From assembly GCF_003664325.1 (NCBI RefSeq), contig NZ_RCDA01000001.1, positions 1,490,866 through 1,554,865 of the forward strand: a stretch of 64,000 bases of DNA, written 5' to 3'. This DNA is from Alkalispirillum mobile (GTDB taxonomy: Bacteria > Pseudomonadota > Gammaproteobacteria > Nitrococcales > Halorhodospiraceae). Below are positions 6,074 to 47,777 of this stretch, in pieces (the stretch's first letter is position 1; every line of letters starts with the position of its first letter). The notes under the pieces were generated by a model, which saw only the letters and a list, made by a program, of their open reading frames with translations, did no database searches and was not told the DNA's origin. The position numbers and the translations under genes were made by a program.

Positions 6074-6079
6074 TATAAT
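6074..6079 (+). promoter_or_regulatory. Possible -10 element upstream of pilR
   Basis: A consensus TATAAT preceded by TGC lies about 60 bp before the pilR start codon. No good -35 hexamer stands 16-18 bp upstream, so the assignment is tentative. Confidence 0.35.
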
Positions 6080-6137
6080 CTTGTACCATGGTGACAAATC
6101 ACGTCACCCGAACGGACGCCGCCGAGGGACTGGAACG

Positions 6138-7496
<1,359 letters not shown>

Positions 7497-7971: not shown

Positions 7972-8191
7972 GCGCCTTCAGGTCATCAAGCAGGGCCTCA
8001 TAACTGAGGGTCGGCTCCGCAACGCGCTCTTCAAACGCCGCCAGATCCTCCTGATCTTCTGCCAAGGCCTCCCTGACCGCTTGATTGACAATGTCAGAGA
8101 TCGTGCGATTGCTATGGGCTGCCTTTAGCTTGAGCGCCGCGTGCAGTTGGGCGTCAAGATAGATAGTCGAACGCTTGGATGCTTCAGTCAT
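7958..8191 (-). CDS. Ribbon-helix-helix antitoxin
   Basis: The 77-residue product starts with a ribbon-helix-helix DNA-binding segment (RSTIYLDAQLHAALKLKAAHSNRT is the strand plus helix A) and ends in an acidic tail that would wrap the toxin. It should bind DNA as a dimer, repress its own operon and neutralise the downstream RelE-like protein. Two inverted repeats directly upstream are plausible operators. The toxin gene overlaps its 3' end, so the two are co-translated. Confidence 0.87.
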   Translation of the reverse strand: MTEASKRSTIYLDAQLHAALKLKAAHSNRTISDIVNQAVREALAEDQEDLAAFEERVAEPTLSYEALLDDLKAHGKL

Positions 8192-8206
8192 GGTCTCACT
8201 ACCACG

Positions 8207-8250
8207 CTCCAGGATGTCATGACATTCTGGAGCCCAGACGTTATGACGTC
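8207..8250. promoter_or_regulatory. Probable operator of the toxin-antitoxin operon (two inverted repeats)
   Basis: Two palindromes sit 16-59 bp upstream of the antitoxin start. The first (8207-8232) has arms CTCCAG and CTGGAG around ATGTCATGACAT, a 26-bp near-perfect dyad. The second (8237-8250) is GACGTTATGACGTC with one mismatched pair. Ribbon-helix-helix antitoxins commonly autoregulate through such repeats; the assignment rests on position and symmetry. Confidence 0.6.
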
Positions 8251-8340
8251 AACGCTCGGCGGCCTAACCGGCTGACGCGATCTGACAGGTGTGACGCATG
8301 ACGGCACCGGCAAGCGTCACACGTCGCACCCGATGGATGG

Positions 8341-8823
8341 CTAACCACCCCCGCCCCCCGAGTCATCCGGCAGCTTGGGCAAGTCCTCGACCGTCTCGCA
8401 ACCGGTCGCATACCGTTGGCTGACCCCCGTCTCGCAGGACCAACTCCCGTCAGCGAAGTCGTAAACGTACTGGATCTGGTCACCATTAAGTCGACCATTC
8501 ACGGCCTGGCCATCCTTCCCGAATTCGTAGGCAAATCGCCAGATGCCCTCCTTGTCACCATCGAACTCGGCATCTACCAAACCCCCGAAACTACCCGCCA
8601 TCTGCATGCCCAGGTCATCCTCGAGGCTATCGAATGTCTGTCCCCGCTGCAGATGCTCCGTCACCGGCGTCTTGGCCATGCCGGCCAGGGTCAGCCCCTC
8701 ACTGAACTGCGCCCGCACCACGAACCCCTGGTAAGACGGAATGGCGATCGCCGCCAGAATACCGATGATCGCCACTACGATCATCAACTCGATCAGCGTG
8801 AATCCCTGCTGCTTTTGCTTCAT
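8341..8823 (-). CDS. pilA: Type IV pilin (PilA-like), copy 1
   Basis: The 160-residue product has a short positive leader cleaved after glycine 7 (KQKQQG before [19 protein letters not shown]), the invariant glutamate at mature position 5 and the hydrophobic N-terminal helix that assembles the pilus core. Two cysteines near the C terminus (WSCETG and TGCET) would form the D-region disulfide loop, and the tail ends in a run of glycines. A sigma-54 promoter precedes it and PilR is encoded upstream. It is one of two pilin genes in the window, and the two differ greatly after the first 40 residues, so each could give a distinct fibre surface. Confidence 0.93.
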
Positions 8824-8853
8824 ACCTGCCCCCAGTTTCTTGCCGGAAAGGCA

Positions 8854-8868
8854 GCAGGTTTCATGCCA
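8854..8868 (-). promoter_or_regulatory. Sigma-54 promoter of pilin copy 1
   Basis: Read on the minus strand the element is TGGCATGAAACCTGC followed by T: GG at -24 and GC at -12 with the exact 10-bp spacing. Transcription should start near 8842, 19 bp before the pilin ATG. The nearby PilR-type activator supports it. Confidence 0.8.
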
Positions 8869-8925
8869 AGGGATTAACCGACCTACTCACGACGGAATTG
8901 CCTTACGGCCCGACTCACCGTGGAA

Positions 8926-9210
8926 TTATGCACGCCGATGGGTGCGGTTGACGTGCTGGGTGTAGACGCCATTAAGGTGGCGCATGCCCTTGGCGAGATT
9001 GCCCTCCGGGGTCTCCACCACCAGATGGTAATGGTTGGTCATCTGGCAGTAGGCGTGGCAGCGCCAGTTGAAGCGTTCGCAGACCTCGCCGAGCAAATCC
9101 AGCCAGGCCCGCCGGTCTCCATCATCCAGGTAAATCGCCTCACGCCGGTCCCCGCGAGACGTCACGTGATACAGGCCACCGGCCAATTCAATCCGTAACG
9201 GACGCGCCAT
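8926..9210 (-). pseudogene. Truncated REP-associated tyrosine transposase (RAYT/Y1 type)
   Basis: The 94-residue product matches the N-terminal part of Y1 transposases of the REP-associated type: MARPLRIELAGGLYHVTSRG, then YCQMTNHYHLVVETP with the HUH metal site as HYH, and LNGVYTQHVNRTH. It stops at TAA just where the second half, including the catalytic tyrosine helix, should begin, so it is inactive. The ATG at 9210 has AGGAGG upstream, showing that the 5' end is intact and the 3' end was lost. It lies next to the 9265-9288 repeat, whose sequence I associate with such transposases. Confidence 0.8.
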
Positions 9211-9264
9211 GTCCGTATCCTCCTCCCTGAGCAATCCGTCAAGTCATCCATGTGGCAGTAAGAC

Positions 9265-9288
9265 TGGCAGTGCAAGACCTGACCCCTA
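9265..9288 (+). repeat. 24-bp direct repeat, left copy
   Basis: A 24-bp sequence beginning TGGCAGTGCAAGACCTGACC is identical at 11681-11704. The left copy is preceded by a partial duplication (GTGGCAGTAAGAC, 9252-9264). The two copies bound the peptidase/nucleotidyltransferase cassette, and a broken REP-type transposase lies just left of this one. Confidence 0.75.
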
Positions 9289-9391
9289 CGCCGTCGCTTG
9301 AAACAAAGCCCAACTTCGGCCACTCTTCCCGTCAACGTACACGAGTTGGACGAACCAGCGAACCAACTCGTTTTTCTGCCCGGAGGCCAAG

Positions 9392-9580
9392 ATGGAACGG
9401 CACAACCTCGCTCAGGCTGTCGCTCGTCTTCTGGAGACAGGCGAACAACAGGCGCTATCGAAAGAAGAGCTTCGCCATTTTCACGCCGAGTTCAGGGATG
9501 AGGTGGCGCCTGCCATTGATTCGCACCGTGAACACCAACGCAAGGCTTATGAACAGATGAAGGAGATCGCGGTCCGGTAA
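9392..9580 (+). CDS. Small helical protein of unknown function, first gene of accessory cassette
   Basis: I do not recognise this 62-residue protein. It is highly charged and predicted helical throughout (LAQAVARLLETGEQQALSKE, then a His/Glu/Arg-rich second half). A good GGAGG site lies seven bases before the ATG. It ends nine bases before the next gene on the same strand, so the two are probably co-transcribed and perhaps translationally coupled, because the next gene lacks a clear ribosome site of its own. Confidence 0.6.
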   Translation: MERHNLAQAVARLLETGEQQALSKEELRHFHAEFRDEVAPAIDSHREHQRKAYEQMKEIAVR

Positions 9581-9588
9581 CCGCGGCT

Positions 9589-11136
9589 ATGCTCATGGAT
9601 GAGCGCCTGCAACTCCACCCTGTTGAGAACATACCGCGGCTACGTCGGCTGATCGCAAGTGTCCTGGGCTCCTCAACAACCGAAAGCCTTGGCCCTTACC
9701 CGCAGCTCGAGCACGCCTGCTTACATCTTCATCGATCAGGCACCGTAGCAGCGGTGGTCCAGCGCCAGGTTCAAGACCCTGATTTCCTGGCCGAACACGG
9801 CACGTACTACTCCCGATGGGCTTATGCAGTGCCTCGATTCTGCACCCGCATCCACTTCTTTTCAGCGAAGCCGAAATCCGCGGATGTCCTCGAGGCAATA
9901 GACGGCTGGGCTGAAGCCGGAGAAGACGTTTACCTCGGGTTCATCACGTTACGGCCCGTCGCGAACAGTCCTGTCGCCGCCTCGTTTATGCGCAAGCCCA
10001 GCTCGGGATGGGGCCAGTTCATCCGCACATACGACAGATATCCCGTTAACCTCTCAGGTCGGCAGTTCCACGTTGACGCCACACCGTTTATGCAGCAGGA
10101 CAATGCGGTCGGCGCCTGCGCACAAGCCTCCATCTGGATGGCCTTACGCACGTTGCGCTGGAAGGAAGGGCGCTCCGCGTTCAACCCTGCCGACATCACC
10201 TCGGCCGCAACCCGGTTCATGGTTAGTGGCCGCACCTTACCCAATCGGGATGGCCTCCGAATAGAGCAAATCACCGAAGCCATCAGGACAGCAGGCTATT
10301 CTCCCCACGTAATCTACCTCAGAAAGCCAGGCGCTAACGGGAAAGAAGCATGGGAACCAGGAGAGTATGCCAAGGTATGTCGCACTCTCTACCCCTATAT
10401 TGAATCAGGCATTCCTGTCATCCTTGCCCTGCTCCATCCGTCAGGCGGTCATGCAGTAGTGGCTATCGGGCACGGCTGGAGCAGGCAAGACCCAGCGCAG
10501 GGACGTCGCCCTCAGCCTGTCCGCGAGAAGCTGGCAGGAGCTGCGTTGCTGGACGCTTCCCAGTGGGCACACCCCTATTACATCCATAATGACAACACGG
10601 GCCCTTATTTGGAATTGACCAGAGGACCAGGGAGCGGATACACGCTTGCAAACGCCTTCTGTGCAATTCCGTTACTGTCTTCTGATATTCTCGTGGATGC
10701 CGATGAGGCAAGAACAGCCACCATCAGCCTTCTTAATGACGTAATGAACATTGAGAAGGTTCGGAAAATGATTGACCTTCCATCAAGGTTGGTTACTCGA
10801 ACACTGTTGCTGGCTCGCACCAAGGTTCGGGAACAGGCGCTGGCCTCGAATCTGAACCCCGCAGTCAAGCGATACTACCGTACCAAGTGGTTACCGAGCC
10901 ACATCTGGTCATTAGAGCTTCACCCAGCGCATGATTATGGGAACTCACCCACAATTGGATTAAGCCCTATTGGAGAGGTGCTACTTGACCCCAGCGCTGA
11001 CCCATCTGAAGGCCACTTTTTGACCATCCGAATTAACGGCGCCATCCTCAAGAACCACCCGGAGACAACGGACTTGATTATTGATCGCAACGCGTTTGAC
11101 GGCAGTATCACGCTTGCGCTGCACAAGGCGGCATGA
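9589..11136 (+). CDS. Large protein with a papain/C39-like cysteine peptidase core
   Basis: This 515-residue protein belongs to no family I can name. Its centre carries a papain-fold pattern: a possible oxyanion Gln at 169-170, Cys177 in VGACAQASIWM at the start of a helix, His288 in GGHAVVAIGHGW, and Asp335 in HNDNTGPY. Spacing and surroundings resemble C39-like and bacteriocin-type peptidases. The N-terminal 160 residues (including GEDVYLGFITLRPVANSPV) and the C-terminal 160 are unassigned. No signal peptide or membrane segment is seen, so it is cytoplasmic. The ATG at 9595 is an alternative start. It sits between the 62-aa gene and an MNT nucleotidyltransferase, inside two direct repeats, which suggests a defence or conflict cassette (inference). 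Confidence 0.65.
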   Translation: MLMDERLQLHPVENIPRLRRLIASVLGSSTTESLGPYPQLEHACLHLHRSGTVAAVVQRQVQDPDFLAEHGTYYSRWAYAVPRFCTRIHFFSAKPKSADVLEAIDGWAEAGEDVYLGFITLRPVANSPVAASFMRKPSSGWGQFIRTYDRYPVNLSGRQFHVDATPFMQQDNAVGACAQASIWMALRTLRWKEGRSAFNPADITSAATRFMVSGRTLPNRDGLRIEQITEAIRTAGYSPHVIYLRKPGANGKEAWEPGEYAKVCRTLYPYIESGIPVILALLHPSGGHAVVAIGHGWSRQDPAQGRRPQPVREKLAGAALLDASQWAHPYYIHNDNTGPYLELTRGPGSGYTLANAFCAIPLLSSDILVDADEARTATISLLNDVMNIEKVRKMIDLPSRLVTRTLLLARTKVREQALASNLNPAVKRYYRTKWLPSHIWSLELHPAHDYGNSPTIGLSPIGEVLLDPSADPSEGHFLTIRINGAILKNHPETTDLIIDRNAFDGSITLALHKAA

Positions 11137-11154
11137 CCCAACCATCATAGCGCT

Positions 11155-11568
11155 ATGGAATCGTCAACGCGCAACCGAAATGCTCTGGTCAAAGCCGTCA
11201 CTCCACTGCTGGCCGCAGAGCCCCTCGTTGTTTGCGCTTATCTCTTCGGCAGCGTTGCTCGGGGTGATGCTGGCCCCCGAAGCGACGTCGATATTGCCGT
11301 ATTGACCTCAAATGACGTTAAGCCGGGGCTCCTGAGCCCGCTCACCCGACTAAAGCTGGATCTGGAAGATGCCCTCGGCCAGAGGGTAGATCTGATACAC
11401 CTGAACCATGCACCGCCAGATCTTGTTCACCGCGTCCTGCGCGATGGCCTTTTGCTGATCGACAAGGAGCCGAACAGGAGAATCTCATTCGAGGTGCAGG
11501 CGAGGAACGAGTATTGGGACCTGCTCCCAATCCTGAAAGAATACCGGCGCGCGCAAGGCAACCCCTAA
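11155..11568 (+). CDS. MNT-type minimal nucleotidyltransferase (MntA-like)
   Basis: The 137-residue product has the polymerase-beta nucleotidyltransferase motif GS-X10-DXD exactly as in MntA antitoxins (GSVARGDAGPRSDVD, residues 32-46), a third acidic position in VDLIHL, and the family's C-terminal block EYWDLLPILKEYRR. MntA proteins normally AMPylate a HEPN RNase (HepT) encoded beside them. No HEPN gene with an R-X4-H-X-Y motif lies on either side here. The neighbour 18 bp upstream is the peptidase-like gene instead, so this is either an orphan antitoxin or has been adopted by a different effector. Confidence 0.83.
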   Translation: MESSTRNRNALVKAVTPLLAAEPLVVCAYLFGSVARGDAGPRSDVDIAVLTSNDVKPGLLSPLTRLKLDLEDALGQRVDLIHLNHAPPDLVHRVLRDGLLLIDKEPNRRISFEVQARNEYWDLLPILKEYRRAQGNP

Positions 11569-11593
11569 CTCCATGAGCTCTCCGCCAATAGAA

Positions 11594-11621
11594 AAAGCCC
11601 CGGCTGTTACACCGAGGCTTT
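11594..11621 (+). terminator. Hairpin downstream of the MNT gene
   Basis: AAAGCCCCGG (11594-11603) pairs with CCGAGGCTTT (11612-11621) with one mismatch around an eight-base loop, 25 bp past the stop codon. The T run is short, so efficiency is uncertain. Confidence 0.5.
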
Positions 11622-11680
11622 CAAGGCCAGAGGCCGGAGCCAGACCACACACCACCAATCAACTCATCCCTAAACCAATG

Positions 11681-11704
11681 TGGCAGTGCAAGACCTGACC
11701 CCTA
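11681..11704 (+). repeat. 24-bp direct repeat, right copy
   Basis: Identical to 9265-9288 over 24 bp and in the same orientation, 13 bp from the end of the second pilin gene. With the left copy it delimits a segment of about 2.4 kb. Confidence 0.75.
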
Positions 11705-11717
11705 GCTCCAAATCAAA

Positions 11718-12236
11718 TCAATCAAGATCATCGACCGACTCACAATCCGAGACATACGCTTCATCAACGTCTGTCTGGCACTCCCAAGTACCCGCATCAC
11801 CATCGGCATCAGTAACAAAGTACCGGTACCTAACGGCGCCACCACCATCGGCAGTCAGCCGGGGACTCGCCTCGGTGTCATCAGCGCCAAAGGTGTAGGT
11901 CACGTCGAAAACACTGTCGCCATCACTCCAGCCCGAATGCGCCGTTATAGCGCCATGGGACCCCAAGACTTGGATCCCCAGTTGCTCGACAATATTGGAG
12001 TCTGACGCCAAACCATCAGAATCACTTTCTGAGTCTCCATCGTCACCGACCGAGCGCCCCCGGTTAATCCGCTCCTGCGCCCCAGTCCTCACACCACCCA
12101 ACAGGGTATGCGCCTCAGAAAACTGCGCCCGAGCGATGTAGTTCTGATACTGCGGAATCGCAATCGCTGCCAAAATACCAATGATCGCCACAACGATCAT
12201 CAGTTCGATCAAAGTAAAGCCCTGTTGCTTCTGCAT
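11718..12236 (-). CDS. Type IV pilin (PilA-like), copy 2
   Basis: The 172-residue prepilin begins MQKQQG before [19 protein letters not shown], a standard class III leader and N-terminal helix, and has a C-terminal disulfide pair (WECQTD and VSDCES). The rest is unlike copy 1, with an acidic, Ser/Asp-rich insert (about 64-82). I set the start at the ATG at 12236, which has AGGAGA upstream; the open frame runs 100 codons further but has no pilin features there. It carries its own sigma-54 promoter, so it is probably expressed under PilR like copy 1, 2.9 kb away. Confidence 0.92.
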
Positions 12237-23978: not shown

Positions 23979-25079
23979 TCAGGGATTCGGGTAGCTGAAA
24001 TCGGCACCGCGAGCATCGTAGAAAGCTTGATCGCCAAACTCCGTCAAGGCTTTCAGGTCCCTGCGCGCCCTGAAGTAGGACTCCCAGATTTCTTTTCCGA
24101 GGGAATCCAGGCTCTCATGCTCTTCCTCGAGAATCTCTCCAGCAGCGCGACCCAACGCAACCACCATGTCTTCCGGCAAGCGGTCAAATATGATGTCGTG
24201 CTCATCCCGCAAGGCCTTCGCCGCCTGGGCATTTATCCAGGTGTACTCCGCGAGCATATCTTCGTTGGCAGCCTGGCACGCAACATCCACAATGCGACGG
24301 AGGTCCTTCGGTAAGGAGTCGTACTCCTCTTTGTTGATGATGGCCTGTTGGACGGCGCCCGGCTTGTGTACGCCAGCCCAGTAGTAATACTTCGCGACGC
24401 GGTGAAAACCCAGTGCCATGTCATTCGCCGGTCCAGTGAAATCCGTAGCGTCTAAGGTTCCAGACTGCAGTGCCTGATACACATCCCCAGGAGCCATAAG
24501 CGTTGGCACTGCACCAAGCCGACGAATCATTTGCGCTCCCAACCCGGGCATTCTCATCGTAACGCCCTTCAAGTCATCAACGCTGTTCAAAGGCTTCTTG
24601 AACCAGCCAAAAGGCGGCGTACCAATATTACCGATAGCAAAACTCTTCAGCCCGAACTCCGCTGACAATTTATCCCAAAGGTCCTGCCCACCCCCATAAC
24701 GAAGCCATGCGGAGTGTTCGGCGAAACTCATGCCAAAGGGGGCCCCAAAGAAGTATGCGAAGGCGCGATGCTTGCCCAGATGGAAGCCGGGCGTGTCATG
24801 ACCGATCTGGGCGGTATTGCTTTGGACGGCATCGAAAGTCTCGAGGCCCGGGACAAGTTGGCCTGCCGCATACACCCTGACCGTGATTCGGCCATCTGAC
24901 ATATCCGTAATACGACGCGCCAGACTCTCTGCGCCCGTACCCAAGCCTGGCAGTCCAGACGGCCAAGCGGTGGCCATGCGCCACTCCCTACGGTTATTGC
25001 TGATAGCGGGGGCGGAATAGGCGGCAGCAGTAACTGCGCCGGCTGCGGCAGTTGCTTTTAAAAAAGCACGACGTTCCAT
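23979..25079 (-). CDS. dctP: TRAP transporter periplasmic solute-binding protein (DctP type)
   Basis: The 366-residue protein begins with a twin-arginine leader (ERRAFLK followed by a hydrophobic alanine-rich run ending near APAIS), so it is probably exported folded. The mature protein matches the DctP/TakP group: MATAWPSGLPGLGTGAESLA, TMRMPGLGAQMIRRLGA, and GTLDATDFTGPANDMALG, where the arginine of MRMPG normally binds the substrate carboxylate. TakP-like members bind 2-keto acids with a metal ion, so a keto or hydroxy acid is the best guess. It is the second gene of the operon, behind the YdhR-like gene. Confidence 0.93.
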   Translation of the reverse strand: MERRAFLKATAAAGAVTAAAYSAPAISNNRREWRMATAWPSGLPGLGTGAESLARRITDMSDGRITVRVYAAGQLVPGLETFDAVQSNTAQIGHDTPGFHLGKHRAFAYFFGAPFGMSFAEHSAWLRYGGGQDLWDKLSAEFGLKSFAIGNIGTPPFGWFKKPLNSVDDLKGVTMRMPGLGAQMIRRLGAVPTLMAPGDVYQALQSGTLDATDFTGPANDMALGFHRVAKYYYWAGVHKPGAVQQAIINKEEYDSLPKDLRRIVDVACQAANEDMLAEYTWINAQAAKALRDEHDIIFDRLPEDMVVALGRAAGEILEEEHESLDSLGKEIWESYFRARRDLKALTEFGDQAFYDARGADFSYPNP

Positions 25080-25132: not shown

Positions 25133-25444
25133 TCAGAGGTGGTCAATCTGACCCGAGACGTTGTCGGTGCGAGCGAAAACGTCGAGGTATTCGATATCGG
25201 GATACATGCCGTAACGATCAAATATCCCATCGCGCCAAGGACCTTTGTAGAACTTTGTGGCAGCCTCCGCTGACTCCCAAAAGTAGATCCCACCGGCCAC
25301 AACGCCGTCTTTGTCACATACGAAATGCTTACTTAACAAGCCTTGGACCCCGCAAAAATCCTCAGATATTTTGTAGAAATGAGCCCGACAATCCTCTCTG
25401 CTGATTGTCGGTGGCAGCCGATATTTTACGATTGCAGCTATCAA
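25133..25444 (-). CDS. YdhR-like dimeric alpha/beta barrel protein (putative monooxygenase family)
   Basis: The 103-residue protein fits small ferredoxin-like-fold monooxygenase-type proteins of the YdhR group (IAAIVKYRLPPTISREDCRA at the start, then GGIYFWESAEAATKFYKGPW in the middle). Biochemical roles in this group are poorly defined. The start is TTG at 25444, supported by GGAGA seven bases upstream and alignment of the first strand. It is the promoter-proximal gene of the TRAP operon, so it may act on the imported compound. Confidence 0.72.
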   Translation of the reverse strand: MIAAIVKYRLPPTISREDCRAHFYKISEDFCGVQGLLSKHFVCDKDGVVAGGIYFWESAEAATKFYKGPWRDGIFDRYGMYPDIEYLDVFARTDNVSGQIDHL

Positions 25445-25569
25445 AACTTATCTCCTTTTTACACGTTAAAAAGGGCCGTTCCAGTCACCGAGGCTGAGCG
25501 AGAAACACCCGGCAGATATGCCCAATCACGCTGGTCAGTGACGAGGGCCATCGCGGTAATAACTAATTA

Positions 25570-25584
25570 GCAAGCGGCGTGCCA
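25570..25584 (-). promoter_or_regulatory. Sigma-54 promoter of the TRAP operon
   Basis: The minus strand reads TTGGCACGCCGCTTGCT, a full match to the -24/-12 consensus including the G after the first block. Transcription should start near 25558, 114 bases before the YdhR-like start. C4-dicarboxylate TRAP operons are classically sigma-54 dependent, but no DctB/DctD pair lies nearby. Confidence 0.85.
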
Positions 25585-25641
25585 ACCGCCTCTGGTAGCG
25601 CTAACCCCATGATAAATCAGGATAAGCGAATAAATACAAAA

Positions 25642-36865: not shown

Positions 36866-38184
<1,319 letters not shown>

Positions 38185-38188
<4 letters not shown>

Positions 38189-39639
38189 GGCATCACCTCC
38201 CGGCGTACGCCCAGCGGCAGCTGGATGAGGAACTCGGTGTCGTCGGGCCGGCTCTGCACCTCGATTCGTCCGCTCAGCTGCTCGATGATCTGATAGGTTA
38301 CCCACAAGCCGAGCCCATTGCCCACGGCACTGACCCCGGAGAAGGGCTCGAACAGGTGCTCCATCCGCTCGGCGGGGATGTGATCGCCGTCATTCCAGAC
38401 CCGGATGCGCAGCCAGTCGTCCCGCCGCTCCAACTGGCAGTGCACCTCGCCGCCCTGGCGCGCCGCCCGCACGGCGTTCAGCAGCAGGTTGATCAGCACC
38501 TGGCGCACCGGCGTGGAGGGCAGCGGCACCGGCCCCTGCAGGGCGTTGTCCCATTGCAGGGCCACCTGCTTGCGACGGATGTCCGGGGCCACCAGCGTGC
38601 GCACGTCCTCCAGGTCCTCCGCCCAGAGGTCCTCGCCCTTCAGGCGGGTCTCCACCAGCAGCGCACCGACGATATCGCGGATCTGCAGCAGCCCCCGCTC
38701 CACCAGCGAGAGGGTCTTGAGGGTGAAGGGATCGGGCGCGCCGTGGTGCTTGTAGGTGTTGAGGGCGTTGAGCATGCCCCCCAGCGGGTTGTTGATCTCA
38801 TGGGCAATGCCGGAGGTCAACCGGCCGATGGCCGCCAACCGGTCCGCCCGCACCATCTCCCGCTCCAGCGCCTCCTTTTCCTGCAATTCGCTCATCAAGG
38901 CGCGGAACTGGCGGTTGAGCCGGCCGATCTCATCCTTGCCGGAGCGCCGCAGGCGGCAGGTCACCTCCTCGGCCGGACCGCTGCCCAGCTTGTCCATGCA
39001 GTCGGACAGGGCCAGCAAAGGCTCTGCCACACGGCGACCCAGCCACCAGCCGGCCGGCACCAGCACCAGCAGAATCAGGAAGGTGGTGACCAAAACCTGC
39101 TGCGCCGCGCCCAGGAATCGGGGCAGAAAGCCATCGCGCGAATACCCGAGCACCACCGTACCGAGCACGCTGCCGTCCATCTCCACCGGCAACAGCACCA
39201 GAAACTCGTTGCCCTCAAGCTGCAGCCGCTCCGGGCCGTCGACGCCTTCGCCGGCCAGCAGGCGGCCCAGCGGGGCCAGGCGGGCATCGGCCTCGGCCGG
39301 ACGGTCGAGGATGGGCAGCCGGTCCGGATCGGTGGAGATGTAGATGCGGTCCTGCTCGTCCAGCACCATGATGCTCTCGGGCCGCAGGTGGGGCTCCATG
39401 TCCACGGTCATCGGCGCGCGGATGGTCTCGTAGGCGCCCCAGACGTCCTCCTGCAGCAGGGCCGGCGCCACCCCGTGCGCCAGCACTCGGGCAAGGCTCT
39501 GACCGTTCTGGTAGAGATCCCGCTCCAGGTCACGCCAGGCCTGGCCGAGTACCGTCGCCGCGATCACCGCCGCTGTCAGCACCACCACCAGGGTAATGTT
39601 GAGCGGTACCTTGTAGCGATAACTGATGTTCTCAATCAT
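38185..39639 (-). CDS. arxS: Sensor histidine kinase of the arx operon
   Basis: The 484-residue membrane kinase has a first helix (about 11-33), a periplasmic sensor domain (about 35-178), a second helix (180-200), a HAMP region, a dimerisation helix with phosphoacceptor His280 in SGIAHEINNPLGG, and an ATPase domain with N box QVLINLLLNAVRAA and G box NGLGLWVTYQIIEQL. With ArxX and ArxR it forms a three-part signalling system. Its ends overlap those of arxX and arxR by four bases each, so the three genes are translated together. Confidence 0.9.
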
Positions 39640-40526
39640 GGTTCGTAGCTATCCGGCGGCTCCGGGAAGCGACCGACATCCACCAGTCGCTTCAGTGCCC
39701 GGATGCCGTCGTACAGCTCATCGTCAGCGGCCCGGAACCCCTCGAGGTTAAGCTTCTCCAGCAACGCCTGCCCCTCTGTATCCTGGCCCATGCCGAACAG
39801 GGCCTCGCGCAGGGCGTTGCGCTCGTCCGCCGTCGCCCCGGGGGAGGCCACTAGCGGCGGGAAACCGAAGTGTTCGGAACGGTGCACCACGCGGGTCCGC
39901 TCGGTCAGGTCCGGCCGGGACCGGGCCAGGGTCTCCCAGACGTAACCGTCCACCAGCCCGCCATGGGCCACCCGCTCGGCTACGGCCTCCACCACCTTGC
40001 GGTGGCTGAAGGTAAAGAAGGTCCGGCGGAAAAACCGCTCAGGGTCCACACCCGCCTCATCCAGCAACTGCTGCCCGTAGAGCCAGCCCGAGTTGGAGTT
40101 GGGGTCGGAATAGGCAAATACCCTGCCGGCCAGATCGCTAATGGACTCCGTCTGATCATCGTCGGCGGGCACGATGAGGTAGGCCCGGTAGAGCGGCGCA
40201 CTCTCGAACAACGGCACGGCGAGCAGGTCCAGTCGGCCCTCGTGCTGCACGTAGGGGTAGCCGCAGAGCCAGGCGAAGTCGATGCGGCCGCGCAGGGCCA
40301 GGTCCACCACCTCGCCGTAGCTGTTCCGGCGCACGAAACGCACCTCGCGGCCCACCTTTTCCTCCAGGTAGACCTGCCACTCGTCCAGGAAGCTCAGCTG
40401 GTCCTCCAGGATCACCGGCGTGAGGCCGATCCGCAGGGGCGGCGCATCCTCGTCGGCCATCACGGGGCCGGCCAGCCCGGCCAGCCAGACAAGCACCACC
40501 CCGATCCAGATATACCCTTGGCGCAT
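39636..40526 (-). CDS. arxX: Periplasmic oxyanion-binding protein (PhnD-like), sensor partner
   Basis: The 296-residue protein has a signal peptide (about 1-24, ending PVMA) and matches phosphate/phosphonate-type binding proteins (PLRIGLTPVILEDQLSFLDEWQVYLEEKVG, GRIDFAWLCGYPYVQHEG, FAYSDPNSNSGWLYGQQLL). In aio and arx systems such proteins bind arsenite and present it to the kinase; here a transporter role is unlikely because no ABC permease or ATPase is present. The ATG at 40526 has GGGAGGT upstream and begins the signal peptide. Confidence 0.87.
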   Translation of the reverse strand: MRQGYIWIGVVLVWLAGLAGPVMADEDAPPLRIGLTPVILEDQLSFLDEWQVYLEEKVGREVRFVRRNSYGEVVDLALRGRIDFAWLCGYPYVQHEGRLDLLAVPLFESAPLYRAYLIVPADDDQTESISDLAGRVFAYSDPNSNSGWLYGQQLLDEAGVDPERFFRRTFFTFSHRKVVEAVAERVAHGGLVDGYVWETLARSRPDLTERTRVVHRSEHFGFPPLVASPGATADERNALREALFGMGQDTEGQALLEKLNLEGFRAADDELYDGIRALKRLVDVGRFPEPPDSYEP

Positions 40527-40546
40527 CAGCGCACCTCCCAATGTGG

Positions 40547-40562
40547 GTTACCAACCCGTAAC
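40547..40562. promoter_or_regulatory. Upstream palindrome 1, predicted ArxR site
   Basis: GTTACCAACCCGTAAC is a dyad with GTTAC/GTAAC arms, matching the second site in 15 of 16 positions. It is 21 bp before the arxX start and about 130 bp before the arxB' -24 element. Confidence 0.6.
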
Positions 40563-40589
40563 ACCCGGCCCGATCTCTGCCTGCGCGCT

Positions 40590-40605
40590 GTTACCAACCG
40601 GTAAC
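40590..40605. promoter_or_regulatory. Upstream palindrome 2, predicted ArxR site
   Basis: GTTACCAACCGGTAAC is a perfect 6-4-6 dyad. It starts 43 bp after the first one (about four helical turns) and ends 64 bp before the sigma-54 promoter, the distance range of NtrC-type enhancers. Both copies are followed by AC, extending the repeat to 18 bp. Confidence 0.65.
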
Positions 40606-40669
40606 ACGCTGGACGCGCTTCGCTGCGTCATCCTGCCGCGAACTGCGCCATTACGCCACACCCCAACGT

Positions 40670-40684
40670 TGGCAAGGCAATTGC
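40670..40684 (+). promoter_or_regulatory. Sigma-54 promoter of the arxB'ABCD operon
   Basis: TGGCAAGGCAATTGC followed by T matches the -24/-12 consensus with exact spacing. Transcription should start near 40696, about 97 bases before arxB'. It faces the operon and lies downstream of two matching palindromes; ArxR carries the GAFTGA loop needed to use such a promoter. Confidence 0.87.
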
Positions 40685-40792
40685 TTGCTCCCAGGCAACG
40701 AGTACAAAGCATGCGCCACGGCCCGCTCCTGTCGCACACCGGACAGGGCGACGACACCACGAACAGGGCCGGGTGCCGGAGGAGAAGCCACC

Positions 40793-42046
40793 TTGTCCCA
40801 GTCCGCCGAACAATCGGCCTGGCATCGCATGGACGATGCGCAGCCCTGGTTGCTGTGGCAGCAGAACGCGTGCCTGCCGGCGCGCTCACCGCTGTCCGAC
40901 TGCCGAGCATGCGTTGATGCCTGCCCGGCGGATGCGCTGGAGGCCACGCCCGAGGGCCCGCGGTTGACCGGCGACTGCGTGGCCTGCGGCCGCTGCAGTG
41001 CGGCCTGCCCCACCGGCGCCCTGAACGGCCCCGGGCTGGACACCGCACCCCGACCGGCCCCGGCTAACCAGCCCCTGAGCGTGGACTGCTGGCGCGTGCC
41101 GCCGGACCAGTCACCGGACGGGGCCCACCGGGTGCCCTGCCTGGGGGCCCTGAGCAGCGATCGGCTCCTGCAGCTGGTCCGGTCTGGCGAGGGGCGGCCC
41201 GTGGACCTGCTGGACCGGGGTTGGTGCGAGGGCTGCCCGGCCAGCGCCGGATGCACCCGCCCACCGGTGGAAAAGGCCCTTGCCGAGTGCCACGACGCCC
41301 TGGATGAATTGGGCCTCGCCGACCGGGCCCCGCGCCTGCGCCAGGCCCCCTTGAGCCGGCGCCTGCTCCGCCAGGAGACCCCCCAGTCGGCCGGTGAGCG
41401 CCGGGTCAGCCGGCGGGGCCTGTTCCGCCGGCTGGCAGGGCACGCCGCCGGGGCATCGGAGCGCCTGCGCGGCGAGACCGGCCCACCCCCCGAGCCGGTC
41501 CCCCTGGTGGCCAACCGGGTCCGGCCGGTGCCCCGGCTCAGGCAGATGGAGGCGCTGGCGGCCCTGGCCGAGCCGCAGGATCAGACGCTGCCCAACACCC
41601 TGTTCCCGGAGGCGAGTGTGTCGGAGGCCTGCAGCAACCACGGCATCTGCGCCTCATTGTGCCCCACCGGCGCGCTGCAGAAGCAAACCGACGCGGCGGG
41701 CGACGGCCTGGATTACGACCCCCTTTACTGCATCCGCTGCGGCCTGTGCCAGCGGGTCTGCCCGGAACAGGCCATCACCATCCATGCACGGGACCAGCAC
41801 CCCTACATGGGTCGCGTCTCGCTTACCCGGCACCGCCGGCAACGTTGCCAGCAGTGCCACACCGATTTTTCCGCAGGGAAAGAGCAGCCGCTCTGCCCCG
41901 GCTGCCGCAAGGACGCCGAGCTGGCCCAGGGCGCGGGCCGCGATCTGCTCTTCGGAGCGGGCTCAAGCTCCGGGGCCGCGGGCCCCACACAAGACCCGGG
42001 CAACCCACCCGGGGATCATGATGATCAGGAGGAAACAAGGCGATGA
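40793..42046 (+). CDS. arxB': Ferredoxin-type [4Fe-4S] protein of the arx operon
   Basis: The 417-residue soluble protein is rich in cysteine motifs. An N-terminal pair (CRACVDACPADALE, CVACGRCSAACPTGAL) and a C-terminal pair (CSNHGICASLCPTGAL, CIRCGLCQRVCPEQAI) are typical of two dicluster ferredoxin domains, and a CQQC...CPGC ribbon follows. The middle (about 80-260) holds isolated cysteines (LDRGWCEGCPASAGC). It is the first gene of the operon and is commonly seen beside arxA; electron transfer or cofactor delivery are both possible. The likely start is TTG at 40793, eight bases after GGAGGAG; ATG at 40829 is the alternative. Its end overlaps arxA by four bases. Confidence 0.85.
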   Translation: MSQSAEQSAWHRMDDAQPWLLWQQNACLPARSPLSDCRACVDACPADALEATPEGPRLTGDCVACGRCSAACPTGALNGPGLDTAPRPAPANQPLSVDCWRVPPDQSPDGAHRVPCLGALSSDRLLQLVRSGEGRPVDLLDRGWCEGCPASAGCTRPPVEKALAECHDALDELGLADRAPRLRQAPLSRRLLRQETPQSAGERRVSRRGLFRRLAGHAAGASERLRGETGPPPEPVPLVANRVRPVPRLRQMEALAALAEPQDQTLPNTLFPEASVSEACSNHGICASLCPTGALQKQTDAAGDGLDYDPLYCIRCGLCQRVCPEQAITIHARDQHPYMGRVSLTRHRRQRCQQCHTDFSAGKEQPLCPGCRKDAELAQGAGRDLLFGAGSSSGAAGPTQDPGNPPGDHDDQEETRR

Positions 42047-44556
42047 AAATGATCCTGGATACGCTGCTTAACCGGCGGCGGTTCCTCAAGGCCACCGGTG
42101 CCACAGGCGCTGCGGCCGCGACCACCGCCGGGGTCGGCAAGCTGGCCGGGTTTACCGCCGCCAGCACCAACTCCACCCATGCCAATGCCCGGCCGGGTGG
42201 CGAGACCCGCGTGACCAAGAACATCTGTCACCAGTGCCCGGCCCGCTGCGGCATCAACGTCTACACCACCAACGGGCGGGTGCACGCCATCTACGGCGAC
42301 CCGGGCAACCCCATCGCCAACGGCAAGCTCTGCCCCAAGGGCCACCTGGGCACCCAGCTGCTGTATGACCCGGACCGGTTCAAGGGCCCGATGAAGCGCA
42401 CCAACCCCAACAAGGGCCGCGACGAGGACCCGGAGTTCGTGCCGATCTCCTGGGATGAGGCCTTCGACATCGTCGCCGAGCGGCTCAACCGGCTGCGCGA
42501 GAACGGTGAATCCCACCGCTTCGCCCACTTCTACGGCCGCGGCTGGGGCTCCTCCGATGCCGGCCTGTACGGTGATTTCGGCAAGCTCTACGGCACCCCG
42601 AACTCCGCCATCGGTCACGCCTCGATCTGTGCCGAGGGCTCCAAGCGGGCCAAGCGCGCCACCGACGGCAACGACTCGTACAACAGCTACGACTACCGCA
42701 ACACCAACTACATCCTGAACTTCGGCGCCAGCTTCCTGGAGGCCTTCCGCCCCTACAACTACCTGATGCAGGTGTGGGGCCACATGCGGAGCAAAAGCCC
42801 GAAGACCCGCATCACCTCCATCGATGTGCGCATGAACCCCACCATGGCGGCCTCCGACCGCTACCTGATGATCAAGCCCGGCACCGACGGCGCCCTGGCC
42901 CTGGCCATCGCCCACGTGATCCTCACCGAGGGGCTGTGGGACAAGGAGTTCGTGGGCGACTTCGAGGACGGCCGCAACCATTTCCGCACCGGCGAGACCA
43001 TCGTCGCGGATGCCTTCGAGGAGAACTGGACTCACGGCATCGCCGAATGGTGGAACGGGGAACTGAAGGACCGCACCCCGGAGTGGGCCGAAGAGATCAC
43101 CACCATCCCGGCGGCGCAGATCTACCGCACCGCCCGGGAGTTCGCCACCACCAAGCCGGCCATGGCGATCATGGAACGCGGCCCGACCGCGCACTTCAAC
43201 GGCACCTACAACGGCATGGCCGTACACGCGCTGAACGCGCTGGTGGGCAGCATGTTCGCCGAGGGCGGGCTGTTCTACCAGATGGGCCCCTCCTACGGTT
43301 CGCTGCCGGTGAGCGCGGACGACTACATGGACGACCACGCCCGGGAAATGGACGGCAAGTACCCGCGCATCGACATGGCGGGCACCGAGAAGTGGCCCAT
43401 GACCAGCCACATGATGCAGGAGTGCGCCAAGCACCACCTGGCCGGCGACCCCTACAAGCTGGACACAGCCATGTTCTTCGTCACCAACCCCATCTGGTCG
43501 GCCCCGGACCCGACCCTGTGGGAGGAGGCGCTGAAGGATGTCTTCATCATCGACACCTCGCCCTACCCCGGCGAGACCGCCATGTACGCCGACATCATCA
43601 TGCCGGAGCACACCTACCTGGAGCGGCTGCAGGACTCGCCCACCTACCCCTTCGAGGGCTGGCCCATGACGGCGCTGCGCGTCCCGGCCGTCGACCCGGT
43701 GTACGACACCAAGCACTTCGGCGACATGATCATCGAGCTCGGCAAGCGCATTAACGGCCCGATGGCCGATTACTACGCCGAACTGGGTGACGTGGAGAAC
43801 ATGCTCCGCCACCGGGCCAAGGGCTTCGCCGATGACCCGGGCGACAACGGCGTCAACGACTTCGAAAGCTGGAAAGAGAAGGGCGTCTGGTACAAGAAGC
43901 CCTACCACTGGCGCTACTGGCGCGGGAAGTTCTGGGAGTGGGACGGCGAGGACTACAACATCGAGATGACCGAGACGGAGGTCAAGGACAAGCTCATGCC
44001 CACCGGCTCGGGCAAGTTCGAGTTCAAGTCCAGCTTCCTTGAGGACCACGCCAACTACATCGCTCAGGAGATGGACATCCCGGAGGACCGGGTGGGCCTG
44101 GTGCAGTGGGTGGAACCCCGCCATACCGGCGGCGGCGACCTGCACTTCGTCACCCCCAAGACCCCGCTGCACGCCGAGGGCCGCAGCGCCAACATCCCGC
44201 AGGCGCAGGCTTACATGCAGCCCATCGTGGGCGGCCGCGGCACTTGCTACCTGGAGGTGAACCCGCAGACGGCGCGCGAGCGGGGCATCAACGACGGTGA
44301 CACCGTGCGCATCTCCGCAGAGGTCCGGGGTGAGACCAAATCCATCAAGGCCAAGGCGCGCTACATGCCCGGCCACCGCCCGGACACCCTGGTGCTGCCC
44401 ATGGAGTACGGCCACTGGGCGCAGGGCCGCTGGGCCACCGCCGAGGGGCGCGATATCAAGCCGGGGCACTCGGGCGACATCACCGAGAACCTCTCCGACC
44501 CGATCTCCGGGCTCGCCAGCTATTACACCGGCAAGGTGCGGCTGGAAAAGGCCTGA
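42043..44556 (+). CDS. arxA: Anaerobic arsenite oxidase catalytic subunit ArxA (molybdopterin enzyme)
   Basis: The 837-residue protein belongs to the DMSO-reductase family, arsenate reductase/ArxA branch. It has a Tat leader (NRRRFLK at 10-16 plus an alanine-rich run), a [4Fe-4S] site C-X2-C-X3-C-X27-C (Cys62, 65, 69, 97), the motif YGRGWG (164-169) reported to separate ArxA from ArrA (which has RYDHT there), and Cys196 in GHASICAEG as the likely molybdenum ligand. It should oxidise arsenite to arsenate in the periplasm and pass electrons through ArxB to the ArxC anchor and quinone, linked to nitrate respiration or anoxygenic photosynthesis. It could work in reverse in vitro, as the family is reversible. 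Confidence 0.93.
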   Translation: MKMILDTLLNRRRFLKATGATGAAAATTAGVGKLAGFTAASTNSTHANARPGGETRVTKNICHQCPARCGINVYTTNGRVHAIYGDPGNPIANGKLCPKGHLGTQLLYDPDRFKGPMKRTNPNKGRDEDPEFVPISWDEAFDIVAERLNRLRENGESHRFAHFYGRGWGSSDAGLYGDFGKLYGTPNSAIGHASICAEGSKRAKRATDGNDSYNSYDYRNTNYILNFGASFLEAFRPYNYLMQVWGHMRSKSPKTRITSIDVRMNPTMAASDRYLMIKPGTDGALALAIAHVILTEGLWDKEFVGDFEDGRNHFRTGETIVADAFEENWTHGIAEWWNGELKDRTPEWAEEITTIPAAQIYRTAREFATTKPAMAIMERGPTAHFNGTYNGMAVHALNALVGSMFAEGGLFYQMGPSYGSLPVSADDYMDDHAREMDGKYPRIDMAGTEKWPMTSHMMQECAKHHLAGDPYKLDTAMFFVTNPIWSAPDPTLWEEALKDVFIIDTSPYPGETAMYADIIMPEHTYLERLQDSPTYPFEGWPMTALRVPAVDPVYDTKHFGDMIIELGKRINGPMADYYAELGDVENMLRHRAKGFADDPGDNGVNDFESWKEKGVWYKKPYHWRYWRGKFWEWDGEDYNIEMTETEVKDKLMPTGSGKFEFKSSFLEDHANYIAQEMDIPEDRVGLVQWVEPRHTGGGDLHFVTPKTPLHAEGRSANIPQAQAYMQPIVGGRGTCYLEVNPQTARERGINDGDTVRISAEVRGETKSIKAKARYMPGHRPDTLVLPMEYGHWAQGRWATAEGRDIKPGHSGDITENLSDPISGLASYYTGKVRLEKA

Positions 44557-44581: not shown

Positions 44582-45331
44582 ATGGCTAAATGGGGAATGG
44601 TCATCGACCTGGACAAGTGCACCGGGTGCCAGGCGTGCACCACGGCTTGTTCCATGGAGAACAACACCCTGCCCGGCGAGAGCTGGCAGGACGTGCTCTA
44701 TTACAACGAGGGTGAATACCCGACCGCCCAGATGAAGTGGCTGCCGCGGCCCTGCATGCAGTGCGAGGACCCGTCCTGCGTGCACGTCTGCCCGACCCGG
44801 GCCACCTACAAGGACCCTGACGCCGGCGGCATCGTCTTCGTGGACTGGAACAAGTGCATCGGCTGCAAATACTGCATGATCGCCTGCCCCTACGGCGTGC
44901 GCTTCTACGCCGATGAGCAGCCGCTCATCGAGCCGGACATGCGCGACGTCTACCCGGGCGAGAACGGCCAGATGTGGAGCCCGCCCTACCAGAACCCGGA
45001 GCAGGACTGGCGCCGGGGCATCGGCATCCAGCCCAAGGGCGTGGTCTCCAAGTGCACCTTCTGCTACCACAAGATCAGCAAGGCCCCCGAGGGCGTGCCC
45101 GATCTGGACGAGGACGATCCGGATCTCGTCGAGTACGTGCCGGCCTGCGTGCGCACCTGCCCGCCCAAGGCCCGTTTCTTCGGCGACCTGGACAACCCGG
45201 AGTCCAACGTCAACCGCATCATCGGCGACAAGAAGGGTGTCCGGTTGCTGGACCACACGGGCAACCGCCCGCAGGTCTACTACCTGGGCGCCGGCGCCGG
45301 TGTACCCGCTTTCAGCCCGCGCAATTCCTGA
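44582..45331 (+). CDS. arxB: Arx electron-transfer subunit with four [4Fe-4S] clusters
   Basis: The 249-residue DmsB/NrfC-type protein has four cysteine groups: CTGCQACTTAC (13-23), CMQCEDPSCVHVC (58-70), CIGCKYCMIAC (92-102), then CTFC with the distant CVRTC pair. It has no signal peptide and probably rides with ArxA through the Tat pathway. It carries electrons between the molybdenum centre and ArxC. The ATG is preceded by GGAGG and lies 26 bp after arxA. Confidence 0.93.
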   Translation: MAKWGMVIDLDKCTGCQACTTACSMENNTLPGESWQDVLYYNEGEYPTAQMKWLPRPCMQCEDPSCVHVCPTRATYKDPDAGGIVFVDWNKCIGCKYCMIACPYGVRFYADEQPLIEPDMRDVYPGENGQMWSPPYQNPEQDWRRGIGIQPKGVVSKCTFCYHKISKAPEGVPDLDEDDPDLVEYVPACVRTCPPKARFFGDLDNPESNVNRIIGDKKGVRLLDHTGNRPQVYYLGAGAGVPAFSPRNS

Positions 45332-45339: not shown

Positions 45340-46539
45340 ATGACCATGTCAGATAACAACGTCATGAAAGGCGGGCTGGGCACCGGGCTGCTGGTGCTCT
45401 CCGCCCTGATCCTTATCGGCTCGTTCGGCTACGTCATGACCCAGCTCATGACGCACGGCCACGCGGCCTTCAACGTCAGTTCGCAGTTGCCCTGGGGGCA
45501 GCCGATCTCCACCTACCTGTACTTCGCCCTGGCGTCGTCCGGGCTGGGCCTGATCGCCTCGCTGCCCCTGGTATTCGGCTTCAAGCAGTACTACGGCATC
45601 GCCAAGCGGGCCATCTTCCTGGCCTTCATCATCCTGATCTCCGGTATGGCGGTGCTGGCGCTGGAGCTGGGCCACACCTTCCGCATGCTGTGGGCCATCC
45701 CCTTCAACATGCAAATCCAGTCCGCCATGTTCTGGATGGGTGTGTTCTACGCCGCCGACCTGCTTTTCCTGCTCTGGAAATTCCAGAAAATGGAGGCCGG
45801 CGACTGGGACAGCAAGAACACCAAGATGGTCGGCATCGCCTCCTTCCTGGGCGTGCTGCTGGCCAGCGGCAACCTGGCGCTGATCTTCGGCATGATGAGC
45901 ATGCGTCCGTTCTGGTTCGACGGCTCGCTGCCCATCTACTTCTACCTGACCGCCGTCACCAGCGGCATGGCCGCGCTGTTCTTCTTCAGCTATATGGCCT
46001 ACGGCTTCGACCGCAGCAAGATGCCGCAGAAACTGCAGAACGCCCTGAACAACGGTCTGCCCAAGCTGTTCGCGGCGGTACTGGGGCTGACCATCCTGTT
46101 CGTGGCGGTGCGCGCCATCACCGGCCTGTACGCCAACAACCCGGAGGTCTACCACGTCTGGGCGGACTACCTGTTCGCCTCGCCGGTCTACATCCTCTCG
46201 TTGCTGTTGGGCCTGGTCGTGCCCTTCGCCCTGATGATGTCCCGGACCCTGCGCGTCAACCCGCAGGTGCAGATCCTGGTCTCCGTGCTGACCTTCGGCG
46301 GCCTGTTCGCCGAGCGCTACTTCTTCGTGGTGGGCGGCCAGGTCATCCCGCTGTTCCAGGGCACCTGGGCGTGGAACATGATCCAGTACACCCCCTCGGC
46401 CACCGAGTGGGCACTGACCATCATGGGTTCCGCCATGATCTTCACGCTCTACGTACTTGGCGAGAAGTACTTCAACCTCTCCGCCGTGCCGGAGCAGCTG
46501 GAGGAGGCAGCGGAGGCCGAGGCCCGGGCCACGGCCTGA
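45340..46539 (+). CDS. arxC: Arx membrane anchor subunit, NrfD/PsrC type
   Basis: The 399-residue polytopic protein has about ten hydrophobic segments and matches the NrfD/PsrC family (GLLVLSALILIGSFGYVM near the start, LELGHTFRMLWAIPFNMQIQSAMFWMGVFYAADLLFLLW, then YLFASPVYILSLLLGLVVPFALMM). It anchors the ArxAB complex and exchanges electrons with quinone. A second ATG at 45346 is an alternative start. It ends before a long palindromic element that separates it from arxD. Confidence 0.92.
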   Translation: MTMSDNNVMKGGLGTGLLVLSALILIGSFGYVMTQLMTHGHAAFNVSSQLPWGQPISTYLYFALASSGLGLIASLPLVFGFKQYYGIAKRAIFLAFIILISGMAVLALELGHTFRMLWAIPFNMQIQSAMFWMGVFYAADLLFLLWKFQKMEAGDWDSKNTKMVGIASFLGVLLASGNLALIFGMMSMRPFWFDGSLPIYFYLTAVTSGMAALFFFSYMAYGFDRSKMPQKLQNALNNGLPKLFAAVLGLTILFVAVRAITGLYANNPEVYHVWADYLFASPVYILSLLLGLVVPFALMMSRTLRVNPQVQILVSVLTFGGLFAERYFFVVGGQVIPLFQGTWAWNMIQYTPSATEWALTIMGSAMIFTLYVLGEKYFNLSAVPEQLEEAAEAEARATA

Positions 46540-46877
46540 AGCCGGGGCAAGGAAGGCCGGGGCAGGGAAGCCCCGGCGCCCATTTATCGACCAGTTTCTG
46601 GTGAGTGCTGCCGGGAGCGGATGATCGCTGGAAGCGACTTTGCGCACCGAGCAACGCAGGGAAAATCGGAAAAAAGCGCGTGCATGTCCGAGCGAAGCGA
46701 GTTCACGCGCGCCGATTTTCCCGAGTAGCGCAGGGCACCCCGAAGGGGTGCGCAAGTGGAGCGCCCAGCGATCATCCGCTCCCGGCAGCACTCACCAGAA
46801 ACCCCTGAACAAAGCCGTGGCCGTCCAGAATGGCAGCCACGCCCTCCCGGACAATCGAATCAGGCCAAGCCAACGCC
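46540..46877. other. arxC-arxD gap
   Basis: No gene is supported in these 338 bases. Most is the long palindrome at 46594-46802. The remaining 75 bases before arxD contain no clear promoter, so arxD may depend on read-through from arxC. Confidence 0.6.
46594..46802. mobile_element. MITE-like long inverted-repeat element inside the arx operon
   Basis: The ends are a perfect 38-bp inverted repeat: left arm 46594-46631 begins GTTTCTGGTGAGTGCTGCCG and the right arm 46765-46802 is its exact reverse complement. The interior also pairs in part (TTTGCGCACC with GGTGCGCAA, GGGAAAATCGG with CCGATTTTCCC, GCGCGTG with CACGCGC), so the whole 209 bp could fold as one long hairpin with a small side stem CACCCCGAAGGGGTG. 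No transposase frame is inside and I see no target-site duplication. A non-autonomous element or a large regulatory hairpin are the two readings. Confidence 0.75.
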
Positions 46878-47777
46878 ATGCAAAACCTGCAACAACACGC
46901 CGAACACCTGATGACCCGCGCCGAGCTCTACCTCTGCCTCGGCCAGGCCCTCATCCCGCCGGTGCAGGCCGGCTACCACCAGGCCATGGGCGAGGCCTTG
47001 CCCGCCGACCTGGACGAACTGCTGCCAGACACCGGCGCCGGGCAACAACTGCGCGACGCCATGCAGCCCATCGCCGACCACGAAACCCTGCTGCGCGGCT
47101 ACAGCCGGCTGTTCCTGGTGCCCCCCTACCCGGCACCCTTGAACGCCGCCCTCTACATCGACAAGAGCATGATGGGCCCCAGCGTCGTAGAGATGGAAGG
47201 CTACTACCAGCGCCACGGCCTGGCCAAGGACGTCAGCTTCCGCGACACCCCCGACCACCTGGCGCTGCAGCTCCAGTTCCTGGCCCTGCTGCTCGCCTCC
47301 GCCGCCCAGGCCGAGGACGACGCCGCCACCCACTACCTGGAAGAAGCGCGCGACTTCCTCAACCGCTTCCTTCGCCCCTGGCCCAACGACTGGGTGCGCA
47401 AGATCGAACAGGAAGCCCGCGACGCCCCGCACGGCGCCCCCTACCTGGTGCTTGGCCGCATGATCCGCGACAGCCTCGACCAGGATGCCCGCTGGCTGCA
47501 GGCCCAGGTGCCTGCCCCCGAGTCCGAAACCCAACCGGAGGCCACCGAACTGGCAGAGGCCTCCGCCGCCGTGGCCGCCAGCGGTGCCGGCAACCAGACC
47601 GACTGCGCCCGCTGCGGCAAACCCTTCGCGGCCTCAGGCGACCTGGCCGGCATGATGGCCACCCTGCGGGAAAAGGGCCTGGACGCCAGTCACCTGGCCG
47701 TCTGTCCCGACTGCCGCGCCGGGGCGATGGGCATGCAGCACACCAACCCGCAGTTCAAGGAAATAAAGACGCCCTGA
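46878..47777 (+). CDS. arxD: TorD-family chaperone for ArxA
   Basis: The 299-residue cytoplasmic protein matches TorD/DmsD-type chaperones that bind Tat leaders of molybdoenzymes and help cofactor insertion: helical start RAELYLCLGQALIPP, YSRLFLVPPYPAPLNAALYIDKSMMG, and YYQRHGLAKDVSFRDTPDHLALQLQFLALLL. After residue 240 there is an added tail with two CxxC pairs (CARCGKPF and CPDCRAG), probably a zinc ribbon. I set the start at 46878; the open frame extends 16 codons further without family match. It follows the palindrome after arxC. Confidence 0.88.
   Translation: MQNLQQHAEHLMTRAELYLCLGQALIPPVQAGYHQAMGEALPADLDELLPDTGAGQQLRDAMQPIADHETLLRGYSRLFLVPPYPAPLNAALYIDKSMMGPSVVEMEGYYQRHGLAKDVSFRDTPDHLALQLQFLALLLASAAQAEDDAATHYLEEARDFLNRFLRPWPNDWVRKIEQEARDAPHGAPYLVLGRMIRDSLDQDARWLQAQVPAPESETQPEATELAEASAAVAASGAGNQTDCARCGKPFAASGDLAGMMATLREKGLDASHLAVCPDCRAGAMGMQHTNPQFKEIKTP

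Follow-up and report, generated by a model that had tools for sequence, protein, structure and literature searches.

The analysed window, a 64,000-nucleotide stretch of Alkalispirillum mobile DNA, contained a complete arx cluster (genes of anaerobic arsenite oxidation), with arxXSR on the minus strand and arxB'ABCD on the plus strand from about position 40793. The controlled operon begins with arxB' (arxB2; 40793-42046), which encodes a 4Fe-4S protein, and continues with arxA (42043-44556, molybdopterin catalytic subunit), arxB (44582-45331, 4Fe-4S subunit), arxC (45340-46539, NrfD-type membrane subunit) and arxD (46830-47777, TorD-type chaperone). A probable arxB' ribosome site (GGAGGAG), together with a TTG start at 40793, was recognised by eye at 40778-40795 on the plus strand, and the GGAGGAG was kept in four of five aligned relatives. 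On the minus strand, arxX (39636-40526, start read as ATG at 40526) encodes a periplasmic binding protein of the arsenite-sensing kind (PF12974), arxS (38185-39639) a sensor histidine kinase, and arxR (36866-38188) a response regulator with a sigma-54 activator domain; the GTG start of arxR at 38188 is our own reading, and the searches took 36866-38230. ArxR has the makeup of a bacterial enhancer-binding protein, i.e., a receiver, a sigma-54 AAA+ domain with GAFTGA and a Fis-type helix (ISRKNLW), and rpoN is present in the genome.

The sequence-only reading had assigned to this locus two 16-bp dyads 43 bp apart, a near-consensus -24/-12 element at 40670-40684 facing arxB' and a divergent ArxR with the GAFTGA loop, and each of these was confirmed: the loop in the ArxR sequence, the dyads by reading of 40547-40562 and 40590-40605, and the promoter element as a single mismatch from the consensus. 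Both dyads lie between arxX and arxB' and are spaced 43 bp start to start, with no strand assigned to either. Dyad 1 (GTTACCAACCCGTAAC, 40547-40562), the proposed distal ArxR box, starts 21 bp upstream of the arxX ATG and is centred at about -141 from the predicted arxB' start; it has one mismatch in the outer 6+6 arrangement, yet is perfect over GTTAC/GTAAC. Dyad 2 (GTTACCAACCGGTAAC, 40590-40605), the proposed proximal box with its centre at about -98, is a perfect 6+6 dyad. Both fit the published AioR box GTTN10AAC, and the longer published AioR expression was matched by eye at 15 of 16 positions. When GTTACCN4GGTAAC was sought across the whole window with up to two mismatches, only these two dyads were found (0.60 expected; two were obtained in 10 of 100 shuffles). 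Across the 2.95-Mb genome, exact GTTAC-N6-GTAAC likewise occurs at these two places alone. A count of two per genome is not odd, because composition alone predicts about 0.8; what is odd is that both share a single intergenic stretch at a distance of 43 bp. The search for a wider ArxR regulon revealed no third exact GTTACN6GTAAC site in the genome, and the 22 additional one-mismatch sites were not in excess of the reversed-pattern control (24 versus 33 in all).

The -24/-12 promoter element TTGGCAAGGCAATTGCT (40669-40685, plus strand; core TGGCAAGGCAATTGC at 40670-40684) differs by one mismatch from YTGGCACGN4TTGCW, with correctly spaced GG and GC doublets. None of 200 shuffles of the 100 bp following dyad 2 reached its score. 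Weaker matches were common, as 56 sites with up to three mismatches were found in the 64 kb versus 66 expected. A transcript start of arxB' is predicted near 40696 from the usual -24/-12 spacing. In the alignment of the window with five relatives, which were picked by us without the two loci nearest on the regulator tree (L095, L096) and had a mean column identity of 49%, 29 of the 39 invariant columns fell in the two dyads and the -24/-12 element. Elsewhere in the window, a consensus-perfect match (TTGGCACGCCGCTTGCT) was noted at 25569-25585 on the minus strand, in front of a small frame (25133-25444) and of one that by eye resembles a TRAP-type binding protein (23979-25079).

The sequence-only reading had suggested a search of other arx loci for the same dyad, and the layout was found to recur before many related operons with ArxR alongside. 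A scan for ArxA relatives yielded 66 loci, on which ArxX, ArxS, ArxR and ArxB' were placed by tblastn. Further loci came from stretches of other relatives and from plasmids. Of 30 plasmid records containing a relative of ArxX, 19 were retrieved and 16 used; L128, L129 and L133 were dropped because an intact regulator frame was not read. The comparison of helix, half-site and loop comprised 66 loci with a linked ArxR/AioR-type regulator, with near copies among them (L117/L131, L027/L028). The weights and the cut-off of 12 (of 14) for the -24/-12 score were our choice.

A dyad was found in 45 of the 46 entries with a sigma-54-type or unseen regulator, and two or more in 41 of them. Of 43 pairs of neighbouring dyads, 29 were spaced by 42-44 bp and 10 by 32-34 bp, the others by 30 (two), 60 and 182 bp. 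For the 41 entries with a promoter score of at least 11.75, the distance from the last dyad to the TGG of the -24 element fell at 58-60, 69-71, 79-83 and 92-94 bp and, beyond these, at 102-138 bp; the offset of 80 in the window fits these clusters. L021 and L114, which are the same DNA, are both in the spacing list and belong to one cluster. Across 27 DNA-similarity clusters, the best period of the offsets was 11.25 bp (R 0.78, reached in 0 of 5000 random sets), which is longer than 10.5 bp, where R was 0.57. Nine other, held-out loci showed the same lean without significance (V 0.33-0.36, p 0.08-0.10). Both the dyad spacings and the dyad-to-promoter distances thus look helically quantised in the compared sequences, and activation over a DNA loop from one helix face would give such phased spacing.

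The type of the box followed the regulator. Helix and half-site could be called in 63 of the 66 loci, using dyads with at most one mismatch (7 of the 63 have one). Lys after Arg in the recognition helix accompanied the GTTAC half-site in all 45 called loci, and Thr or Ser at that place accompanied GTTCG or GTCCG in all 18. The uncalled loci were L064, where the regulator is present and the dyad absent, L095, with the helix off frame, and L126, with no dyad in the scored stretch; in the latter, a GTTCG dyad lies 49 bp past the regulator, and an IS separates it from aioB. On a quick tree computed from the regulator sequences minus helix and loop, the helix residue and the half-site changed once each. 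Two loci set the enzyme apart from the regulator. L097 (G025; 5052-12008) combines an aioBA operon, an ArxXSR-type module and two GTTAC dyads 33 bp apart; its AioA exceeds the TIGR02693 cut-off, and its genome has no ArxA match at E 1e-150. In L118 (Azoarcus sp. KH32C plasmid, 1391-9636), an ArxXSR-type module and one GTTAC dyad are divergent from a DMSO-reductase-family molybdoenzyme that reaches no NCBIfam cut-off, and arsenic efflux genes come after it. The dyads of these two loci therefore indicate that it is the regulator, rather than the enzyme, that the box accompanies. The same follows for the GTTAC/GTTCG split, since the beta- and gammaproteobacterial aio loci L097, L120, L121 and L127 share the GTTAC type. 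In L095, an exact site at 13643 lies inside a 439-aa lysA-like frame and was taken as a chance match rather than an ArxR box. Two related genomes have one-mismatch dyads some 450 bp past arxR, inside open frames (L113, 10231; L114, 10405).

In the aioBA operons described previously, two palindromes and a -24/-12 element were reported in all 12 cases with aioXSR and were absent from those without it (PMC3834237). The arx locus, with its XSR genes, likewise had two palindromes and a -24/-12 element. Among nine arx loci without a linked arxX (L008, L010, L011, L020, L033, L050, L060, L066 and L110/L115; linkage judged at the locus only), GTTAC dyads with at most one mismatch were found in none, and a -24/-12 score of at least 12 was reached in one. 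This was L008, at 12.5, with the best scores of the others between 9.75 and 11.25. L008 and L020, which contain one-mismatch GTCCG/GTTCG matches, were initially scored for -24/-12 over a shortened stretch, and later all nine were scored whole. The count excludes loci truncated by a contig end (L004/L101, L005, L006, L015, L032, L056, L059, L103, L107). It also excludes L031, which lacks a dyad, has arxB2 downstream and scores no higher than 11.75 for -24/-12.

The promoter type followed the sigma-54 loop of the regulator. A -24/-12 score of at least 12 was obtained for 43 of 52 loci with the loop versus none of 14 without it (Fisher p 1e-8, kinship ignored), counting among the former L130, in which GSFSGA replaces GAFTGA and which was placed in this group after its loop was read. 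The loop-bearing loci that scored below 12 were L025, L026, L065, L027, L028, L043, L049 (13.5 over a wider stretch), L064 and L097, and the loop-less loci closest to the cut-off were L051 (11.75) and L017 (11.25). On the regulator tree, the loop was lost twice, as against six changes of the -24/-12 call at the cut-off of 12, which makes the promoter call the noisier of the two; one or two independent pairs do not suffice for a test. One loss is that of L044, which comes from a metagenome, sits on a very long branch and kept the Lys helix and GTTAC dyads.

In 13 of 13 Rhodobacterales loci examined, a TAnnnT hexamer began 97-100 bp downstream of where the last dyad starts; among 2000 shuffled sets, the highest count was 5 of 13. 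The TAnnnT form had been chosen after the sequences were seen. Seven of 37 loop-bearing loci had TAnnnT in their best window. The set consisted of 12 loci in which a loop-less regulator was seen (L017, L018, L041, L047, L051, L062, L063, L068, L122, L123, L124, L134) and L057, whose regulator is mostly off the contig; L044 and L126 were left out, and for L068 the second dyad, 32 bp further on, was set manually. We interpret TAnnnT as a putative -10 element of a sigma-70 promoter, in which case the spacing would be rigid with sigma-70 and flexible but phased with sigma-54. The pattern may represent a single event, because the Rhodobacterales loci are related. An inverted repeat, GGTATG...CATACC or near, was observed by eye just upstream of the hexamer in L047, L051, L062, L063 and L068. 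The NtrC proteins of Rhodobacter capsulatus and Caulobacter, which are without GAFTGA, were reported to be active at sigma-70 promoters (PMC10274813). All four combinations of helix and loop type occurred, the loop-less state with Lys only in L044. We put even odds on ArxR and AioR forming one family with a readable code, in which Lys versus Thr/Ser sets the half-site and a separate loss of GAFTGA shifts the promoter from sigma-54 to sigma-70, with a -10-like TAnnnT at a rigid 97-100 bp and the dyads kept.

We interpret 40547-40696, at a probability of roughly 0.88, as a predicted sigma-54 promoter whose upstream activating sequence is a pair of ArxR sites. On binding arsenite in the periplasm, ArxX would lead ArxS to phosphorylate ArxR, and ArxR dimers would occupy both dyads, about four helical turns apart, and assemble into an ATPase ring. 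Looping of the DNA would then bring the GAFTGA loop into contact with sigma-54 RNA polymerase at 40669-40685, and the arxB'ABCD promoter would be melted near the predicted start at 40696. The sequence-only reading had viewed the dyads as ArxR sites that activate arxB' over a DNA loop, and the predicted activation of arxB'ABCD by ArxR via sigma-54 is well supported by the comparison. Its further suggestion, that dyad 1 serves arxX-S-R, was not supported as a kept role.

According to the latter suggestion, the dyads would also, or mainly, control arxX-S-R, with ArxR at dyad 1 repressing or activating its own operon. Dyad 1 does sit where an arxX promoter or leader is expected, the dyads of L112 overlap the arxX start region, and an AioR site was predicted in print upstream of aioX in NT-26 (PMC6011840). 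In the NT-26 record, however, the sole GTTN10AAC before aioX is weak, overlaps the aioX start and misfits the printed expression. In seven loci, arxX is detached, standing either downstream of arxB' or over 1 kb away from it. Five of these seven, with arxXSR downstream on the same strand (L013, L014, L036) or arxX more than 1 kb away (L026, L065), lacked any dyad with up to two mismatches within 500 bp upstream of arxX; at arxB', each of the five retains one or two. The remaining two are of no help here: L055 has one two-mismatch site at -68 from arxX, plus an exact dyad some 0.8 kb away, and L064 has a dyad at neither arxX nor arxB'. A box with at most one mismatch before X was absent from all 18 loci (11 aio and 7 arx) in which XSR precedes the oxidase genes on the same strand, with only 268 bp readable in L041. 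A dyad therefore does not stand upstream of arxX wherever arxX lies, the gap between arxX and the first dyad varies widely among loci, and the detached and same-strand loci give no support to autoregulation of arxX as a kept role. Control of arxX-S-R through the dyads is thus unlikely, but in the compact locus of the window ArxR on dyad 1 may hinder arxX transcription by promoter occlusion.

The other explanations are less probable still. Binding of the GTTAC dyads by another transcription factor, with ArxR acting elsewhere, could be argued on the grounds that ArxR binding is a prediction and that the analysis of Alkalilimnicola ehrlichii named another 14-mer (PMC5908839), but we deem it very unlikely: both the presence and the half-site type of the box track the regulator gene, whether the enzyme beside it is arx, aio or, at one locus, unassigned, and the published 14-mer occurred in none of the loci assembled before the plasmid records were added, a set that did not include MLHE-1. 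It is harder still to credit that an ordinary sigma-70 promoter drives arxB' and that the -24/-12 match arose by chance. Chance matches do occur, as the perfect one at 25569-25585 and the score of 12.5 of 14 in L008, without a linked regulator, demonstrate; nevertheless, the element at arxB' is conserved and lies at a quantised distance, its score was not reached by shuffling, and a simple scan of 40400-40900 returned no sigma-70 promoter-like site. The possibility that the dyads act as RNA hairpins in the arxX leader, as an attenuator or processing site, we regard as the least credible of all. GTTACC-AACC-GGTAAC can form a stem-loop and dyad 1 is close to arxX, but in loci with arxX elsewhere the dyads stay with arxB' and precede its predicted start, and no terminator-like site was found in 40400-40900; this reading was rejected on both grounds.

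The preferred interpretation, a sigma-54 promoter activated by ArxR from paired dyads, adds to a literature in which, as of 2019, arxXSR had yet to be shown to act in arx expression, according to the accessible portions of two reports (PMC6683785, PMC6549141). Among open-access papers, none was found that names ArxR dyads in its title or abstract. For A. ehrlichii MLHE-1, an RpoN element and a 14-mer ArxR site were predicted for arx (PMC5908839). That RpoN element is one base off the one in the window; in contrast, the 14-mer is not a dyad, and paired dyads are not mentioned in the available text of the report. With the box, its pairing and its spacing now defined, the role of arxXSR becomes directly testable and ArxR targets become predictable. 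Moreover, the compared loci form a natural series in which the reading of DNA and the contact with the sigma factor seem to change separately.

At glnA, NtrC uses two activator sites that lie whole helical turns apart, about 100-140 bp upstream of the -24/-12 element. The window is alike in layout, whereas the signal and the box differ. The closest likeness is to AioXSR/aioBA of Agrobacterium, Rhizobium NT-26 and Herminiimonas, which shares the three-component regulator family, the GTTN10AAC box and the combination of two palindromes with a -24/-12 element (PMC3834237, PMC5335332, PMC2848651); the AioR footprint was reported on GTTCGGATTTCCGAAC, with GTTN10AAC as the consensus (PMC5335332). 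Because paired palindromes are already in print for aioBA, the proposed arx switch is a further case of a known switch type, and the family description given here is broader than that in the accessible text of the cited papers. Unlike these aio systems, the window has an ARX enzyme, an inner half-site of GTTAC instead of GTTCG, and a divergent operon.
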